Positions 6,493 through 44,319 of a stretch of DNA of 64,000 nucleotides are shown piece by piece; within the stretch, counting starts at the first letter, position 1, and every line of letters begins with the position of its first letter. A program made the translations under genes and the position numbers. Location of the stretch: the NCBI RefSeq assembly GCF_021631985.1, contig NZ_CP070225.1:1426001-1490000 (forward strand), given 5' to 3'. The notes under the pieces were generated by a model that had not been told where the DNA came from, made no database searches, and saw only the letters and a program-made list of their open reading frames with translations. The stretch is from Sandaracinus amylolyticus. GTDB taxonomy: Bacteria > Myxococcota_A > Polyangia > Polyangiales > Sandaracinaceae.

Positions 6493-9198
<2,706 letters not shown>

Positions 9199-36957: not shown

Positions 36958-38402
36958 ACGATCTGCACTCGGGCCGTCGCGCCTTCCTCGTGGGCCTCGG
37001 AGGCGCGATCATCTCGCTGCCGCTCCTCGAGCACACCCACGGCCGCGCCTTCGCGCAGGGCCCTGCGCCCAAGCGCTTCCTCACCGTGTTCGAGCACGGC
37101 GGGACGATCTCGAACATGTACCGCGGCTGGCCCAACGGGGACGGCGGTTGGCGCGCCGACGGTCGCGGCGAAGGGCACGGGCTCGACTACTGGGCGCCGG
37201 CGAGCACCAGCGAGACGCTCGCGCTCGGTCCGATCCACCAGGACCTCGCGCCGTGGGCGTCGAAGCTCCTCGTGCTCCAGGGCGTCGACAACCGCGCGGG
37301 CATCCTCCAGAGCGAGTACGCCGACGGCGGGCACGGCACCGCGAACGTCACCGCGCTCACCGCGGCGGACATCTCGGACCCCGGCGACGACGCGGTCTCG
37401 CGCGGTCCCTCGATCGATCACGTCCTCGCCGAGCGGCTCGCCGCGATCCAGCCCGCGCGCTTCTCGCGCATCCACCTCGACGTGTCGGGCCATCACTACG
37501 GCTCGCCGTACTTCCGCGCGGCTGGTGAGCGCGTCGAGGGCGAGCCCGATCCGCGCGCCGCGTTCGACTCGATCTTCGAGGGCGTCACCGGCGACGGCGC
37601 ACCCGATCCCGCGCTCCTCCGTCGCATCCGACGCCGCCGCAGCGTGCTCGACGGAGCGCTCGATCAGCTCGCGCGGTTCCGCTCACGCGTGAGCGCGAGC
37701 GATCGCGCGGCGGTCGACGCGCATCTCGAGCACCTGCGCGCGCTCGAGCGCGAGCTCGACGCGCTCGAGACTCCGCCGATGTGCGCACCGCCCGACGAGA
37801 TCGCCGAGGCCTCTCGCGCCGAGGTGATCGGCCCGCTGCACGTGCGCATCATCGTCGCCGCGCTGCGCTGCGGGCTCACCAACGTCGCGAACCTCGAGAT
37901 CGCCGACATCATCACGCCCTGGGTCGGCGGGACCGACTGGGGCTACGAGATCGGGCACTCGCTGCACCACTACGCGCGCGAGATCGGCCCCGAGGGCCCC
38001 TCGGCGGGCCAGCACGACCAGTGGGTCTCGGAGATGCTCGCGAACCGTCGCTGGCGCATGAGCCTGGTGCGCCAGCTGATCGAAGGGCTCGACGACCCGA
38101 CGTTCCTCGAGGGCGATCGCACGCTGCTCGACAACAGCCTCGTGCTCTGCACGAGCGAGTTCTCGAACGGCGCGGTCCACGTCGCCTACAACGTGCCGGT
38201 GCTGCTCGCGGGGAGCGCGGGCGGGTACTTCCGCACCGGGCGCAACATCGACTACGACACCGCGCCCGGCGCGCTCGAGTACACGTCGCGCGAGTCGACG
38301 CACAACCTCTTCACGTCGATCCTCCAAGCGTTCGGCGGAGACGACGCGCACTTCGGGAGCGAGCACGCGGTCCACCAGGGCCCGCTCCCCGAGCTCACTT
38401 GA
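36954..38402 (+). CDS. DUF1552-family secreted protein (Tat-type signal)
   Basis: 482 residues. The N-terminus S-G-R-R-A-F-L-V-G-L-G-G-A-I-I-S-L-P has a twin Arg and a weakly hydrophobic core, so Tat export is likely; cleavage is near A-F-A-Q (about residue 35). The body matches DUF1552 (F-E-H-G-G-T-I-S-N-M; D-N-R-A-G...H-G-T-A-N; C-T-S-E-F-S-N-G), a group with an alkaline-phosphatase/sulfatase-like fold related to DUF1501. The GTG start at 36954 overlaps the DUF1592 stop and has AGGAGG 8 bases upstream. The 3' end overlaps the convergent SDR gene by 8 bp. Confidence 0.87.
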   Translation: MNDLHSGRRAFLVGLGGAIISLPLLEHTHGRAFAQGPAPKRFLTVFEHGGTISNMYRGWPNGDGGWRADGRGEGHGLDYWAPASTSETLALGPIHQDLAPWASKLLVLQGVDNRAGILQSEYADGGHGTANVTALTAADISDPGDDAVSRGPSIDHVLAERLAAIQPARFSRIHLDVSGHHYGSPYFRAAGERVEGEPDPRAAFDSIFEGVTGDGAPDPALLRRIRRRRSVLDGALDQLARFRSRVSASDRAAVDAHLEHLRALERELDALETPPMCAPPDEIAEASRAEVIGPLHVRIIVAALRCGLTNVANLEIADIITPWVGGTDWGYEIGHSLHHYAREIGPEGPSAGQHDQWVSEMLANRRWRMSLVRQLIEGLDDPTFLEGDRTLLDNSLVLCTSEFSNGAVHVAYNVPVLLAGSAGGYFRTGRNIDYDTAPGALEYTSRESTHNLFTSILQAFGGDDAHFGSEHAVHQGPLPELT

Positions 38403-39288
38403 TCTCGAAGGGCGGGATCACGCGACCGTCGACGTCGGTGAAGCCGTACTCCGGCGCGAGATCGCCGACGCACAGCACGCGCCCGCTCTTCGCCATCACG
38501 CCGGTGTCCGCCGCGAGCGCGGCGACCGCGCGCCCCAGATATCGCGGCGATTCCGTCGACGCGAGCTCGGGGCGCTCGCGCCATCGCTCCTCGGTCGTGT
38601 GGTGCCCCGCGAGCACCAGCTCGGTGCGCATCCAGCCCGGCGACACCGCGACGGATGCGACGCCGTGCGGCCGCAGCTCCTCCGCGAGGTCGAACGCGAG
38701 GCGATTGAACGACGCCTTCGCGAGGTCGTAGAAGAGATTGCCGCGCAGATAACGATCACGATCCCAGAACGTCGTCGTGACGATCAGCCCGCGCTTCTGC
38801 TCGACGAAGATCGGCGCCGCGACGTGGCTCGCGATCAGATGGCTGCGCAGACCGCCCTCGAACATGCCGTTCCAGTGCGCGAGCGGCTGCTCCCAGAACG
38901 GCGCGGAGAGCGACTCCTTGGTGAACGTCTCGTGTCCGCCCCACACGTTGTTCACGAGCAGATCGAGCCGCCCTTGCTCGCGCATCACGCGCGCGAAGAG
39001 CGCGCGCACCTCGCCCTCGTCGCGATGATCGCAGCGCACCGCGATGCCGCGCCCGCCCTCGCGCGTGACGTCGTCCGCGGTGTCCTCGATCGTCCCCGGC
39101 ATCCGCGAGATGCCGCTCAGCTCCATGATCCCGCGGTACGCGTCGGGCGCCGACTCGCGCGTGCTCCGACCGGTCACGTAGACCGTCGCGCCGGCCGCGC
39201 CCAGCTCGAGCGCGATGCCGCGCCCCGCGCCGCGGCTCGCCCCGGTCACGATCGCCACCCGACCTCGCAGTGTTCGTTCGTTCGTCAT
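38395..39288 (-). CDS. Short-chain dehydrogenase/reductase
   Basis: 297 residues. The nucleotide motif T-G-A-S-R-G-A-G-R-G (15-24) and N-N-V-W mark a classical SDR similar to DHRS1-like proteins. The active-site Y-x-x-x-K is present as Y-D-L-A-K. The usual catalytic Ser, about 13 residues before Tyr, is replaced by Thr within V-T-T-T-F-W, so activity may be altered. Arg after the Gly motif suggests NADP(H). The substrate is unknown. The gene is separated by 16 bp from the AraC-type regulator stop, with the same orientation, and could be its transcription partner. Confidence 0.85.
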   Translation of the reverse strand: MTNERTLRGRVAIVTGASRGAGRGIALELGAAGATVYVTGRSTRESAPDAYRGIMELSGISRMPGTIEDTADDVTREGGRGIAVRCDHRDEGEVRALFARVMREQGRLDLLVNNVWGGHETFTKESLSAPFWEQPLAHWNGMFEGGLRSHLIASHVAAPIFVEQKRGLIVTTTFWDRDRYLRGNLFYDLAKASFNRLAFDLAEELRPHGVASVAVSPGWMRTELVLAGHHTTEERWRERPELASTESPRYLGRAVAALAADTGVMAKSGRVLCVGDLAPEYGFTDVDGRVIPPFEIK

Positions 39289-39304: not shown

Positions 39305-40165
39305 TCATGCGCCCGACGCGGCTTGGAGAAACCCGAACTCGCGACGCAGCGCGCTCGGCGTGAGCCCGGTGAACGCCCGCACGTCGTGCACGAGGTGCGA
39401 CTGATCGACGTACCCGCACGCGATCACCACGTCGGACCACGCGCTCCCCCGACGCACCATCGCCAGCGCCGCGCGGAACCGCGCGAGGCGACACGCGGCC
39501 TTCGGCGAGAGCCCGACGTGCTGGTGGAAGAGCTGCTCGAGCCGTCGCTCTCCGACGCCGACGTGCGCCGCGACGTCGCGCACCCGCTCGCGACCGCCGT
39601 GCTCCGCGATGCGCCGCATCGCCGCGAGCGCCGCGCGATGCGGGGCCGCGTCCACGCCGCGCAGTCGCTCGCGGAGGATCGCCTCCATCGTCGCCACCCG
39701 CGCGCGTCCGTGCGGCGCCGACGCGAGCCGCTCGCGCGCCTCCTGCGCCGCGCGTCCCCAGAGCGCGTCGAGCGACACACGCGCGCCCGCGATCTCTCCC
39801 GCCGGCACACCGAGCTGGTGCCCGATCGCGCCCGCGCGCAGGTGCACGCCGACCTGCTCGATGCGGCCCGCCATCCGGATGATCACCGGCGCGACGCTCG
39901 CGCCGTGCACCTCGGCCTCGAGCGCGTCGTCGCCGCGCGGGCCGGGCACAGGATCGCCCAGCGTGAACGCGACGTGCACCGTTCCGTCGGGCAGCACGCG
40001 CTCCACGATCTCCTCGCCCCTCGCGATCGGCTCGAGGCACAGGTGGATCCGCGTCACGTACGCGCGCAGCGCGAGCGAAGGCGCCCATGCGGAGTAGGGC
40101 GCGTCTTCGAGCGGCGGCGGCAGCGCCGCGAGCGGATCTTCGGAGACGAAGATCCGCTCGGTCAC
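39305..40165 (-). CDS. AraC-family transcriptional regulator, coupled to a kinase
   Basis: 286 residues. The N-terminal half (about 1-140) is a beta-rich sensor of the DUF6597 type (V-L-P-D-G-T-V-H-V-A-F-T-L-G-D). The C-terminal half has a double helix-turn-helix: V-R-D-V-A-A-H-V-G-V-G-E-R-R-L-E-Q-L-F-H (first HTH) and V-V-I-A-C-G-Y-V-D-Q-S-H-L (second HTH), then the AraC signature F-T-G-L-T-P-S-A-L-R-R. The GTG start at 40165 is in a GTGA overlap with the kinase stop. A kinase co-translated with an AraC factor suggests the kinase may modify it. The adjacent SDR gene is a plausible target. Confidence 0.88.
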   Translation of the reverse strand: MTERIFVSEDPLAALPPPLEDAPYSAWAPSLALRAYVTRIHLCLEPIARGEEIVERVLPDGTVHVAFTLGDPVPGPRGDDALEAEVHGASVAPVIIRMAGRIEQVGVHLRAGAIGHQLGVPAGEIAGARVSLDALWGRAAQEARERLASAPHGRARVATMEAILRERLRGVDAAPHRAALAAMRRIAEHGGRERVRDVAAHVGVGERRLEQLFHQHVGLSPKAACRLARFRAALAMVRRGSAWSDVVIACGYVDQSHLVHDVRAFTGLTPSALRREFGFLQAASGA

Positions 40166-41703
40166 GCGCGCTTCCGCGCCATCATCGCGACCACGACGCC
40201 GACCCCGAGCGCGATCACCACGCGCGCCGCGGACCACAGCGGATCCCAGTGACCGGGGCGCAGAAGCGCGACCACCGACCACACGCGCGACGCGATCTCC
40301 ATCGCGCCGTACGTGAACACGCCCGCGCCGAGCGCGGTCCACGCACGCGCGCCCACCGCCTCGATCGCCGGCGCGCTGCGCCATGCACCGCGAAGCGCGC
40401 GCGTGCTGCCCGCGAGCGCCGCCGCGAGCGCGACGAGCGCACCGAGCACCACGAGCACCAGCTCCGCGTCGTGGATCTGCGCGCCCTCGCGCAAGCCGTC
40501 GACGAGCAGCGCGAGGAACGTGCCCACACCGAGCCCCACGCCGAGCGACGCGCTCACCGCGCCGCCGATCGCGAGGGGCCGCGCCCACTTCGCGCGCCGG
40601 TTGATCGACTTCGTGCGCGCCGCGCTGATCGGGCGCACGTCGTCGGTGATCACGGTGCTCGTGCCGCCGGCGTCGAACACGGCGATCGCGTGCTCCATCT
40701 CGTCGATGCTCGCGAAGCGCGCCTCGGGATCGCGCGCCATCGCGCGCTCGATCACCGCCTCGACGCCCTCGGGGATCGCGGGCTCGATCGTGCGCGCGCG
40801 CTCGGGCGATTCCTCGAGCAGCTTCACCAGCGTGACGCTCGCGTCGGCCGAGCCGTAGGGCGCGCGACCGGTGAGCATCCGATAGAGCAGGGCGCCCGCC
40901 GAGTACACGTCGCTGCGCGCGTCGACGTTCGCCGATCCGCGCGCCTGCTCCGGCGACATGTACGCGGGCGTCCCGACGATCGCGCCGGTGCCCGTGAGCT
41001 CCGCGTCGCCGCCGATCTTCGCGACGCCGAAGTCGAGGATCTTCAGCGTCACGCCGCCCGCGGGATCGCGCGCGAGGAAGAGGTTCGACGGCTTCAGATC
41101 GCGATGCACCACGCCGCGCGCGTGGGCCGCCGCGAGGCCGCGGCACACCTGCCGGAACAAGCGGATCGCCCGCGGCGCCGAGAGCTTCGTCTCGCGCGCG
41201 AGGTGCTGCTCGAGATCCTCGCCCTCGAGCTTCTCCGCGACGATGCACGGACGACCATCGGGCGTGCGCAGCACGTCGACGACGTCGACCACGTGATCGC
41301 TGCGCACCTGGCTCATCGCGCGCGCCTCGCGATCGAAGCGCGCGAGCAGATCCTCGCGCCACGCGAAGCCGTGGTGGATCACCTTGACCGCGTAGCGCCG
41401 CTCGAGCCGCAGGTGCTCGGCCTCGTACACGAGGCCCATGCCTCCCTCGCCGAGCCGCGATCGCACCCGGAAGGTGCCCGCGAGCACCGCGCCGAGCATG
41501 GGATCCTCGACGCCCGGTGGCAGGCTGCCGAGCGGGGTGCCGTCGCTGGGGCACACCCGATAGCTGGTGGGGTGCGTCGCGCCGCACGTCGCGCATCGCA
41601 GCTCCCCGGGCGAGGTGCTGGCGCTGCCGAGCGCATTGGGCTTGGCGAGCACCGTGGCGTCGTTCGACGCACCCGTCGCAGTCAACGCAGCGCCTCCTCG
41701 CAC
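40162..41703 (-). CDS. Ser/Thr kinase with N-terminal zinc ribbon and four membrane helices
   Basis: 513 residues. A zinc-ribbon-like segment (Cys37, Cys40, Cys51; C-A-T-C-G-A-T-H-P-T-S-Y) resembles that of the kinase at 9330. The kinase domain follows: G-E-G-G-M-G (85-90), Lys107, H-R-D-L-K-P-S-N, D-F-G, M-S-P-E-Q-A-R-G. Residues about 375-510 hold about four hydrophobic helices. The GTG at 41703 is the longest start. A TTG at 41685 has GGAGG in good position and may be the true one (about 507 residues). Its stop overlaps the AraC gene. Confidence 0.88.
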   Translation of the reverse strand: MRGGAALTATGASNDATVLAKPNALGSASTSPGELRCATCGATHPTSYRVCPSDGTPLGSLPPGVEDPMLGAVLAGTFRVRSRLGEGGMGLVYEAEHLRLERRYAVKVIHHGFAWREDLLARFDREARAMSQVRSDHVVDVVDVLRTPDGRPCIVAEKLEGEDLEQHLARETKLSAPRAIRLFRQVCRGLAAAHARGVVHRDLKPSNLFLARDPAGGVTLKILDFGVAKIGGDAELTGTGAIVGTPAYMSPEQARGSANVDARSDVYSAGALLYRMLTGRAPYGSADASVTLVKLLEESPERARTIEPAIPEGVEAVIERAMARDPEARFASIDEMEHAIAVFDAGGTSTVITDDVRPISAARTKSINRRAKWARPLAIGGAVSASLGVGLGVGTFLALLVDGLREGAQIHDAELVLVVLGALVALAAALAGSTRALRGAWRSAPAIEAVGARAWTALGAGVFTYGAMEIASRVWSVVALLRPGHWDPLWSAARVVIALGVGVVVAMMARKRA

Positions 41704-41881: not shown

Positions 41882-42964
41882 TCACTGCTTCTTGCGGCTG
41901 AGCTCGAGCGGGATCGCCCCGCTCGCGTCGAGCTCGTCCGAGGACGCCCCGAAGAGCGCCGCGCGAACGCGCTTCGCCTGCTCCACGTCGAGCGACGAGA
42001 CGCTGCGACGCCCGGTCCCGAGCCCGAGCCGCTCGCGCGCCTCGCGCACGTCGTTCGCGATCGCGTGCATGTCCGGCGGCTCGTCGAGGTGATCGCGCAG
42101 CACGCGGCGAAGCGCGACGCCCATCGAGCGCACGTCGGGGAAGCGACTCGCCGGGTCGCGCGCGAGCGCGGTGTGGACGATCTCGGCGAGCGCGGTCGGC
42201 ACGTCGGGACGGATCGCCATGATCGGCGGCACGCTCGCGCGGGCCACCTTCTGCAGGATCTCGACGTCGCTCGCGCCCTCGAACAGTCGCTCTCCCGCGA
42301 GCGTCTCCCAGAGCACGATGCCCACGCCGAAGAGATCGGTGAGCGCCGACGGCGGATGATCGAGCGTGAGCTCCGGCGCGAGGTAGCCGAGCTTGCCCTT
42401 CACCGTGCCGGGGTTCGTCACGCGCGCGCGATCGGTCGCCCGCGCGAGGCCGAAGTCGGTGATCTTCACCGCGCCGTTCACCGCGAGCATCACGTTCTGC
42501 GGCGTCACGTCGCGGTGGAAGATCGGCGCAGCATCGCCGTCGGGCGTCTCGCGGGTGTGCGCCGCGTGCAGCCCGCGCAGCACTTCCACCACGATCGCCA
42601 CCGCGGTCGGCCACGCGACCTGCTCCTCCACGAGCGCGTGCGCGTGCACGAGGCGGCGCAGGTCGAGCCCCTCGACCCACTCCATCACGAGGTAGTGGCC
42701 GTGCTCGTCGCTCCCGAAGTCGTGGATGTGCACGATGTTCGGGTGGTCGAGCGTGGCGTTCACGCGCGCTTCCTCGACGAACATCGCGACGAACTGTGGG
42801 TCCACGGCCAGCGCCGGGTGCGCGCGCTTGAGGGCCACCGGGCGCTCGAAGCCCTCGGCGCCGAGCGTGATCGCACGCCAGACGGTCGCCATCCCGCCCT
42901 CGCCGGCGCGCTCGACGAGCTCGTACTTCCCGGCGATCCGCCGCCCCGGTTGGTCCCGCCCCAC
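41882..42964 (-). CDS. Ser/Thr protein kinase, soluble
   Basis: 360 residues, with no membrane helix. The kinase domain starts at once: G-K-Y-E-L-V-E-R-A-G-E-G-G-M-A-T-V, ATP lysine 46, catalytic H-R-D-V-T-P-Q-N (Thr instead of the catalytic-loop Lys), D-F-G, K-G-K-L-G-Y-L-A-P-E. A charged, Ser-containing C-terminal tail of about 75 residues follows. The GTG start is at 42964. It is divergent from a close paralogue across about 116 bp; the two share the order and wording of most kinase motifs, so they probably arose by duplication. Confidence 0.88.
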   Translation of the reverse strand: MGRDQPGRRIAGKYELVERAGEGGMATVWRAITLGAEGFERPVALKRAHPALAVDPQFVAMFVEEARVNATLDHPNIVHIHDFGSDEHGHYLVMEWVEGLDLRRLVHAHALVEEQVAWPTAVAIVVEVLRGLHAAHTRETPDGDAAPIFHRDVTPQNVMLAVNGAVKITDFGLARATDRARVTNPGTVKGKLGYLAPELTLDHPPSALTDLFGVGIVLWETLAGERLFEGASDVEILQKVARASVPPIMAIRPDVPTALAEIVHTALARDPASRFPDVRSMGVALRRVLRDHLDEPPDMHAIANDVREARERLGLGTGRRSVSSLDVEQAKRVRAALFGASSDELDASGAIPLELSRKKQ

Positions 42965-43080
42965 GACGAGCGAGGATACCAGCCTCGTGAGCCCGCGCAG
43001 TCGATGATCCCCCGGCCATTTCGTTCATCGCTGAAATGCCGCCGCGGATCAGGTACGCTGGCGCTCGCAGGCTGGAGCGG

Positions 43081-44319
43081 ATGGCGGTCGACGCGCCGGG
43101 CAGGATCATCGCGGGGAAGTACGAGCTCGTCTCTCCCGCAGGCGAAGGCGGCATGGCCGTCGTGTGGAAGGCGCTGGCGCGCGGCGCCGGGAGCTTCCAG
43201 CGTCCCGTCGCGATCAAGCGCATCCAGCACGCGAAGCACGCGGACCCGAGCTTCGTGCGGATGTTCGAGGAGGAAGCCCGCGTCGGCTCCGAGCTCCATC
43301 ACCCGAACGTCGTGCAGATCCTCGACTTCGGCATGGACGAGGAGGGCGGCTACTACCTCGTGATGGAGTGGATCGAGGGCCTGGACATGTTCCAGTGGGT
43401 CCGCTCGTTCCCGAAGGGTCTGCGCGAGACCCCATGGCCGCTGGTCGCCGCGATCGGCATCGAGGTGTGCCGCGCCCTCGCTGCGGCGCACGAGCGCGTC
43501 GACGCGCGCGGGCAGATCGTGCCGGTCTACCACCGCGACGTGTCGCCCTCGAACGTGCTGCTCGGCGTGAGCGGCGTCGTGAAGCTCACGGACTTCGGCC
43601 TCGCGCGGGCGATGGATCGCGCGAGCATGACGCGGCCCAACGTCATCAAGGGCAAGCTCGCGTACTGCGCGCCCGAGCTGATCAGCGGCGCGAAGCCGAG
43701 CGCGCAGTCGGATCTGTTCGCGCTCGGCGTGGTGCTCTGGGAGGCGCTCGCGCAGAAGCGTCTCTTCACCGGGAAGAACGATCTCGAGGTGCTGCTCGCG
43801 GTGCGCAAGGGCGACGTGCCGCGGCTCTCGGATTTGCGGCCCGACCTGCCGCACTCGCTCGCGCTCGCGGTGCACACGGCGCTCGAGACGCAGCCCGACA
43901 CGCGGTTCGAGAACGCGAAGTCGATGGCGCGCGCGCTCGCCGCGGTGCTGCGTGCGGAGGCGGAGCACGCGGATGCCGAGCCGCTCGGCGCGAGCGTGCG
44001 CGCGGCGCGTGTGAGGCTGGGCAAGGACGCGCCCGAGGGCGCACCGCAGCCGGTGCTCGAGGCGCCGACGCCGAAGCTCGGCGCGCCCGCGCTCACGCCG
44101 GTGTCGGAGCCGAGCGCGCAGGAGATCTCGCTCACCGAGCTCGAGGCGGTCGAGACGCCGACCGTGCTGCCCGCGGAGAGCGCGAGCATGTCGGTCGAGA
44201 AGGCACCGAACAAGACGGTCCCGGGATCGCCCGCGGTGCTGTCGCCGGCGCCCAGGGGGTTGTGGCAGAGCGATGATCGAAGCGTCGCGGAGCCGCTGCC
44301 CCTCGTGAAGAAGAAGTAG
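43081..44319 (+). CDS. Ser/Thr protein kinase, soluble, paralogue of the divergent kinase
   Basis: 412 residues. The kinase domain is at about 12-280: G-K-Y-E-L-V-S-P-A-G-E-G-G-M-A-V-V, Lys46, H-R-D-V-S-P-S-N (no catalytic-loop Lys), D-F-G-L-A-R-A, K-G-K-L-A-Y-C-A-P-E. A Pro/Ala/Glu-rich disordered tail (about 300-412) ends in three Lys. No membrane segment. The start is the ATG at 43081, with GGAG 5-8 bases upstream; an in-frame extension to 43036 would run through the promoter region. A 9-bp hairpin (44359-44386) lies 40 bases after the stop. Confidence 0.88.
   Translation: MAVDAPGRIIAGKYELVSPAGEGGMAVVWKALARGAGSFQRPVAIKRIQHAKHADPSFVRMFEEEARVGSELHHPNVVQILDFGMDEEGGYYLVMEWIEGLDMFQWVRSFPKGLRETPWPLVAAIGIEVCRALAAAHERVDARGQIVPVYHRDVSPSNVLLGVSGVVKLTDFGLARAMDRASMTRPNVIKGKLAYCAPELISGAKPSAQSDLFALGVVLWEALAQKRLFTGKNDLEVLLAVRKGDVPRLSDLRPDLPHSLALAVHTALETQPDTRFENAKSMARALAAVLRAEAEHADAEPLGASVRAARVRLGKDAPEGAPQPVLEAPTPKLGAPALTPVSEPSAQEISLTELEAVETPTVLPAESASMSVEKAPNKTVPGSPAVLSPAPRGLWQSDDRSVAEPLPLVKKK

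Follow-up and report, generated by a model that had tools for sequence, protein, structure and literature searches.

The closest described counterpart of the locus reported here is the PknK–VirS–mymA locus of Mycobacterium tuberculosis, in which a Ser/Thr kinase gene adjoins the gene of an AraC-family regulator beside oxidoreductase-type genes (PMC4601284, PMC9045387, PMC10272862, PMC13234193). PknK phosphorylates VirS, the regulator encoded adjacent to it (PMC4601284, PMC10272862), and this phosphorylation raised the DNA affinity of VirS about 2.5-fold (PMC4601284). VirS in addition has a ligand domain that binds a small molecule (PMC13234193); ligand and phosphorylation inputs are thus not mutually exclusive. 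A second set of relatives is known at the level of structure: the ligand-sensing regulators ToxT (fatty-acid bound), Rns, AraC and the lactose sensor BgaR all combine a cupin-like N-terminal domain with a two-HTH C-terminal domain.

Here, we analyse a stretch of 64,000 nucleotides from Sandaracinus amylolyticus (the window), in which a kinase gene likewise adjoins an AraC-type gene, followed by a gene for a short-chain dehydrogenase/reductase (SDR). VirS has a ligand-binding domain, and the window regulator carries a DUF6597 domain that is a candidate ligand sensor. Three differences from the mycobacterial system can be named. The first concerns the kinase: PknK is soluble and has a STAND domain (PMC4601284, PMC9045387), whereas Pfam finds only a kinase domain in the window protein, which has hydrophobic C-terminal stretches and no STAND match. 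The second is the target, as VirS acts on a neighbouring operon starting with a monooxygenase gene and the candidate target here is the SDR gene. The third is that phosphorylation has been demonstrated for PknK and VirS, whereas the window pair is known from its genes. We consider it probable that an older AraC–SDR module lies behind a Hanks-type kinase in this genus, with a ligand-responsive regulator and an SDR that share the transcript and translation of the kinase.

Genes, domains and the overlap

Four genes follow one another on the minus strand, namely two kinase genes, the AraC gene and the SDR gene (Table 1).

Table 1. Features of the kinase–AraC–SDR locus, in window coordinates
Feature	Position	Strand	Remarks
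Further kinase gene, upstream	41882-42964	minus	178 bp before window kinase; same order in congener G001
Hanks-type Ser/Thr kinase gene (window kinase)	40162-41703	minus	513 aa, GTG start; alternative start 41652
N-terminal three-Cys motif C-x2-C-x10-C-P-S-D-G, zinc-ribbon-like	41539-41595	minus	from translation
Kinase domain, residues 79-337	40693-41469	minus	Pfam; HRDLKPSN and DFG present in alignment
GTGA overlap, kinase stop/AraC start	40162-40165	minus	4 bp; TGA and GTG share GTGA
14-bp perfect inverted repeat, TCTC loop	40129-40160	minus	starts at base 6 of AraC gene
AraC-type regulator gene	39305-40165	minus	286 aa; HTH_18, HTH_AraC and DUF6597 over cut-off
DUF6597 N-terminal domain, residues 28-130	39776-40084	minus	Pfam; cupin-like barrel in model
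AraC DNA-binding domain, HTH_18, residues 199-275	39341-39571	minus	Pfam
SDR oxidoreductase gene	38395-39288	minus	297 aa; 16 bp after AraC gene

The window kinase scores 154 bits against Pfam Pkinase (cut-off 31.7, E 6.6e-45) and has the domain and both catalytic motifs of a Hanks-type kinase; beyond its kinase-type matches the Pfam scan gave no further domain. The preliminary description had called it a zinc-ribbon membrane Ser/Thr kinase. The kinase assignment stands, but the putative ribbon has three Cys rather than four, and this motif is missing from an aligned kinase relative of 54-55% identity in G004. Membrane attachment is a candidate property: a simple hydropathy scan, which is not a topology predictor, picked out three such hydrophobic segments, near residues 381, 408 and 487. 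The upstream kinase gene lies back to back with a further kinase gene on the plus strand (43036-44319), with about 70-115 bp between the starts, and the same arrangement is seen in the congener G001.

The regulator matches HTH_18 (60.7 bits, cut-off 33.6), HTH_AraC (45.7 bits, cut-off 26.6) and DUF6597 (46.2 bits). An AlphaFold2 model built from 42 sequences (pLDDT 89.6) pairs a cupin-like N-terminal domain with an AraC DNA-binding domain; the latter has the two HTH units of the AraC/XylS family and matches 3oio with a Z score of 14.8 (rmsd 1.7 over 107 residues). ToxT and Rns are whole-chain matches that share the architecture, although they are 6-12% identical to the window protein over the whole chain and differ in domain arrangement (rmsd 5.5-7 Å over ~200 residues). 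The N-terminal part also matches the sensor domains of BgaR and AraC, weakly (Z 6-7). The layout of the model is that of ligand-controlled regulators, and ligand binding is predicted. It had been remarked that kinase control of an AraC factor would be unusual; the remark needs qualifying in the light of PknK–VirS (PMC4601284, PMC10272862).

The SDR scores 93.3 bits against adh_short and 95.7 bits against adh_short_C2, and its nearest solved relatives are 7bsx (E 1e-66) and the human-type DHRS1 structure 2qq5 (E 6e-45), which makes it a DHRS1-like SDR. It contains a YxxxK stretch (Y187 and K191); ahead of this stretch, in the TTTFWDRD region, a catalytic Ser of the kind usual in SDRs is not evident.

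The overlap of the kinase TGA with the GTG of the regulator gene had been placed correctly, in both position and strand. The GTG start is sound, because AraC homologues begin with M-x-E-R-[LI]-[FY] at the same residue. The congener G001 has the identical GTGA overlap (kinase 7289-8830, AraC 8827-9687 of L039), retained at a synonymous divergence of about 0.23-0.27. Overlaps of exactly 4 bp are common and ordinary in this genome, occurring in 19 of the 88 codirectional neighbour pairs that our simple gene caller found in 12 stretches. The overlap suggests translational coupling from the kinase to the regulator, and together with the 16-bp gap before the SDR gene it is compatible with a single transcript. 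A promoter upstream of the SDR gene, which had been suggested as something to look for, did not emerge: the AraC–SDR gap is just 16 bp, and a consensus scan for sigma-70 sites found none on either strand.

The inverted repeat just inside the AraC gene has a core that is single-copy in the 11-Mb genome. In G001 the 3' arm differs at four of its 14 positions with no matching change in the other arm, so that three pairs are lost and one is now G-U; the fold z-score is -3.9 in the window genome and -1.0 in G001. We rejected the hairpin as a coupling device on these grounds; because it is partly decayed in the congener, it is not relied on and its function is doubtful.

The kinase and the regulator as neighbours

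The preliminary description proposed a signal unit of the PknK–VirS kind, in which the kinase phosphorylates the AraC protein and this then switches the SDR gene. We regard this as possible but unlikely. In its favour, the adjacent, overlapping genes have been retained in two species, the catalytic motifs are in place, and the kinase is under purifying selection; a kinase gene adjacent to that of its AraC-family substrate also has its precedent in PknK and VirS (PMC4601284, PMC10272862). Between the window genome (G000) and G001 the kinase is 94% identical with a dN/dS of 0.14, and all of the other genes are likewise under purifying selection (upstream kinase 0.15; SDR 0.19; AraC 0.26 at 89% identity). 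Against it, Pfam shows no additional domain in the kinase that could recruit a substrate. Ser/Thr sites special to the G000 and G001 regulators, for example S8, T62 and S131, were considered as kinase-specific sites and dropped, as two close congeners cannot separate such sites from drift.

Conservation also argues against a unit. Among 56 genomes, the window genome included, the AraC protein has orthologue-level matches only in G000 (100%) and G001 (89%), and the next match, in the same-order genome G053, is at 37%; the kinase has a match at E <= 1e-60 in 55 of the 56. Only two of the genomes, G000 and its congener G001, were found to have the kinase–AraC pair itself; their gene order here is near-identical, and they share the whole neighbourhood at 90-94% protein identity. 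A third congener, G002, is fragmented into 820 contigs; with the thresholds applied it gave neither an AraC nor an SDR match, and no AraC gene adjoins its best kinase match (45%). No AraC gene adjoins the 45-55% identical kinase relatives whose flanks were inspected in G002, G003, G004, G005, G007 and G009, nor the kinase paralogues in G000 and G001. One kinase paralogue (L060 7176-8666; also L057, L058, L059 and L061) has beside it, on the opposite strand, a pair of genes of about 111 and 350 aa that is conserved across the family. A kinase–AraC signal unit beyond adjacency is not supported.

The remaining point in favour of phosphorylation is a mild excess of kinase-to-AraC neighbours in the window genome, which has at least 153 Pkinase and at least 59 HTH_18 matches. 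The count used 147 of the 153 kinase matches and 58 AraC genes, one AraC gene and three kinases on contig C2 and three unlisted kinases having been dropped. Within 4 kb on the same strand there are seven pairs, involving five distinct AraC genes of the 58, against 1.6 expected (P 0.003), and at a 1.5-kb cut-off two against 0.6 expected (P 0.14); three distance cut-offs were tried, the P values are uncorrected, and the random placement behind them ignores gene structure. Each of two comparison families has a single kinase pair (TetR, 52 genes; LysR, 58 genes). In G053, read by eye, the corresponding figure is 0 of 27. Since the excess comes from five distinct AraC genes, varies with the cut-off and has no counterpart in G053, it is suggestive only, and we do not accept a general kinase-to-AraC linkage.

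Only three of the five AraC genes stand in possible operons, those of the window, L062 and L063. L063 (4087-6616) has a kinase gene, a 220-bp gap and an AraC gene, and L062 (4905-8493) has a kinase gene, a 230-aa gene, a 196-aa gene, presumably DJ-1-like, and an AraC gene. A different arrangement, an AraC gene followed directly by a kinase gene on the same strand, occurs at L066 (4114-7041) in the window genome and at L165 (4481-6826) in G053, with the AraC proteins 29% and the kinases 34% identical. These two loci may be a conserved pair in reverse order, with paralogy as an alternative.

Conservation of the AraC–SDR pair without the kinase

A scan of named genomes with an SDR alignment gave 80 loci, at which an upstream AraC gene was counted if it ended less than 700 bp upstream on the same strand. 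Such a gene lies directly upstream of the SDR in 65 of the 80, mostly in Burkholderiales and also in Myxococcota, Gemmatimonadota and Rhodanobacteraceae; the gap is 9-214 bp (median 53) in the 55 pairs with both genes called. All three of the paired AraC proteins scanned against Pfam carry DUF6597 and HTH_18, as the window regulator does. The window, with its DUF6597 regulator directly upstream of the SDR on the same strand, thus belongs with the pairs of Variovorax, Rhizobacter, Hydrogenophaga, Minicystis and others, which have the same AraC architecture, order, strand and short gap and SDRs of 65-72% identity. For six of the 15 SDRs without AraC, the upstream neighbours were identified in Pfam and are other genes: a racemase (twice), a Rieske oxygenase, a methyltransferase, an M28 peptidase and, on the opposite strand, a SprT-like/DUF2786 protein.

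Unlike the window, the pairs of Variovorax, Rhizobacter, Hydrogenophaga and Minicystis have no adjoining kinase. One of the 80 loci, L084, has a match to the window kinase, which runs on the opposite strand and comes within ~2.4 kb of the SDR on the upstream side; some of the loci, L132 for example, have little upstream sequence. Burkholderiales are expected to have few such kinases, and the absence of a kinase from loci dominated by this order therefore says little. The informative cases, kinase-rich and with AraC, are four Myxococcota loci. The AraC–SDR pair stands there without an adjacent kinase in Minicystis (L085; AraC 52%, SDR 72%) and in the Kofleriaceae (L084 and L160); in G053 (L161) the genes that match best, at 38% for AraC and 65% for the SDR, stand directly one after the other with AraC first, and the 17-kb stretch L040 of that genome contains no kinase. 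Retention of the pair elsewhere without the kinase argues against the phosphorylation unit. The simplest account of it is a self-contained regulator–enzyme module that lies behind the kinase in this genus.

A phylum-wide SDR search, with six candidates scored per genome, found matches at E <= 1e-85 in at least 3 of 377 genomes. The SDR tree comprised 37 rows, with at most 26 AraC-linked pairs hand-picked from 57, eight unlinked SDRs and three outgroup rows; as two of the latter (L078 and L080) are evidently wrong-strand, with branch lengths of 7 and 10, its root is meaningless, and only groupings among the 34 close relatives were used. The window SDR groups with those of Minicystis (L085), L084 and L097 (support 99/97), and the eight Myxococcota rows split into seven in the group of the window (97/94) and L161 apart. 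By phmmer score the best match to the window AraC is also in L085 (228 bits). Both genes thus lead to the same relatives, in keeping with joint inheritance. The earlier suggestion that the SDR gene is a candidate target of the regulator is strengthened by this conservation (65 of 80 relatives, and a kinase-free pair in G053), which points to the SDR as its likely partner or target. A literature search, with subscription papers mostly outside its scope, found neither a description of the AraC–SDR pair nor a paper naming DUF6597 in this context.

A probable regulator–enzyme module behind a kinase

In the reading that we favour, the AraC-type regulator would respond to a ligand through its DUF6597 sensor and act through its DNA-binding domain, most likely on the SDR gene. 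Regulator and SDR would be read from the kinase transcript, and the regulator would be translated partly by termination–reinitiation at GTGA, in addition to the output of any promoter within the kinase gene. The regulator would not have to be phosphorylated directly. The arrangement is, overall, fairly ordinary, because the steady partner of the regulator is the reductase gene and the kinase is its neighbour in only two closely related genomes.

That the genes are unrelated neighbours, with a separate promoter for the AraC–SDR pair within the kinase gene and an overlap that reflects only genome compaction, seems to us improbable. The frequency of 4-bp overlaps, the abundance of kinases (153 Pkinase matches) and the nearest kinase relatives without AraC are all as such an account would have them, but the overlap has been retained despite the synonymous divergence of the two congeners, and a promoter for the pair has room only inside the kinase gene, where the scan, limited to sigma-70, found none. 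Less probable still is that in this genus the kinase captured the older ligand-sensing module and gave it two inputs, ligand and Ser/Thr phosphorylation, with supply tied to kinase synthesis through GTGA and a hairpin favouring reinitiation.

If the kinase does act on the AraC protein, the locus would join PknK–VirS as another example of a Hanks kinase that targets an AraC factor, here in a lineage whose genomes each hold about 150 kinases or more. More modest but firmer is the conserved AraC–SDR pair, a clean regulator–enzyme module; Variovorax would be a place to look for its ligand and substrate.
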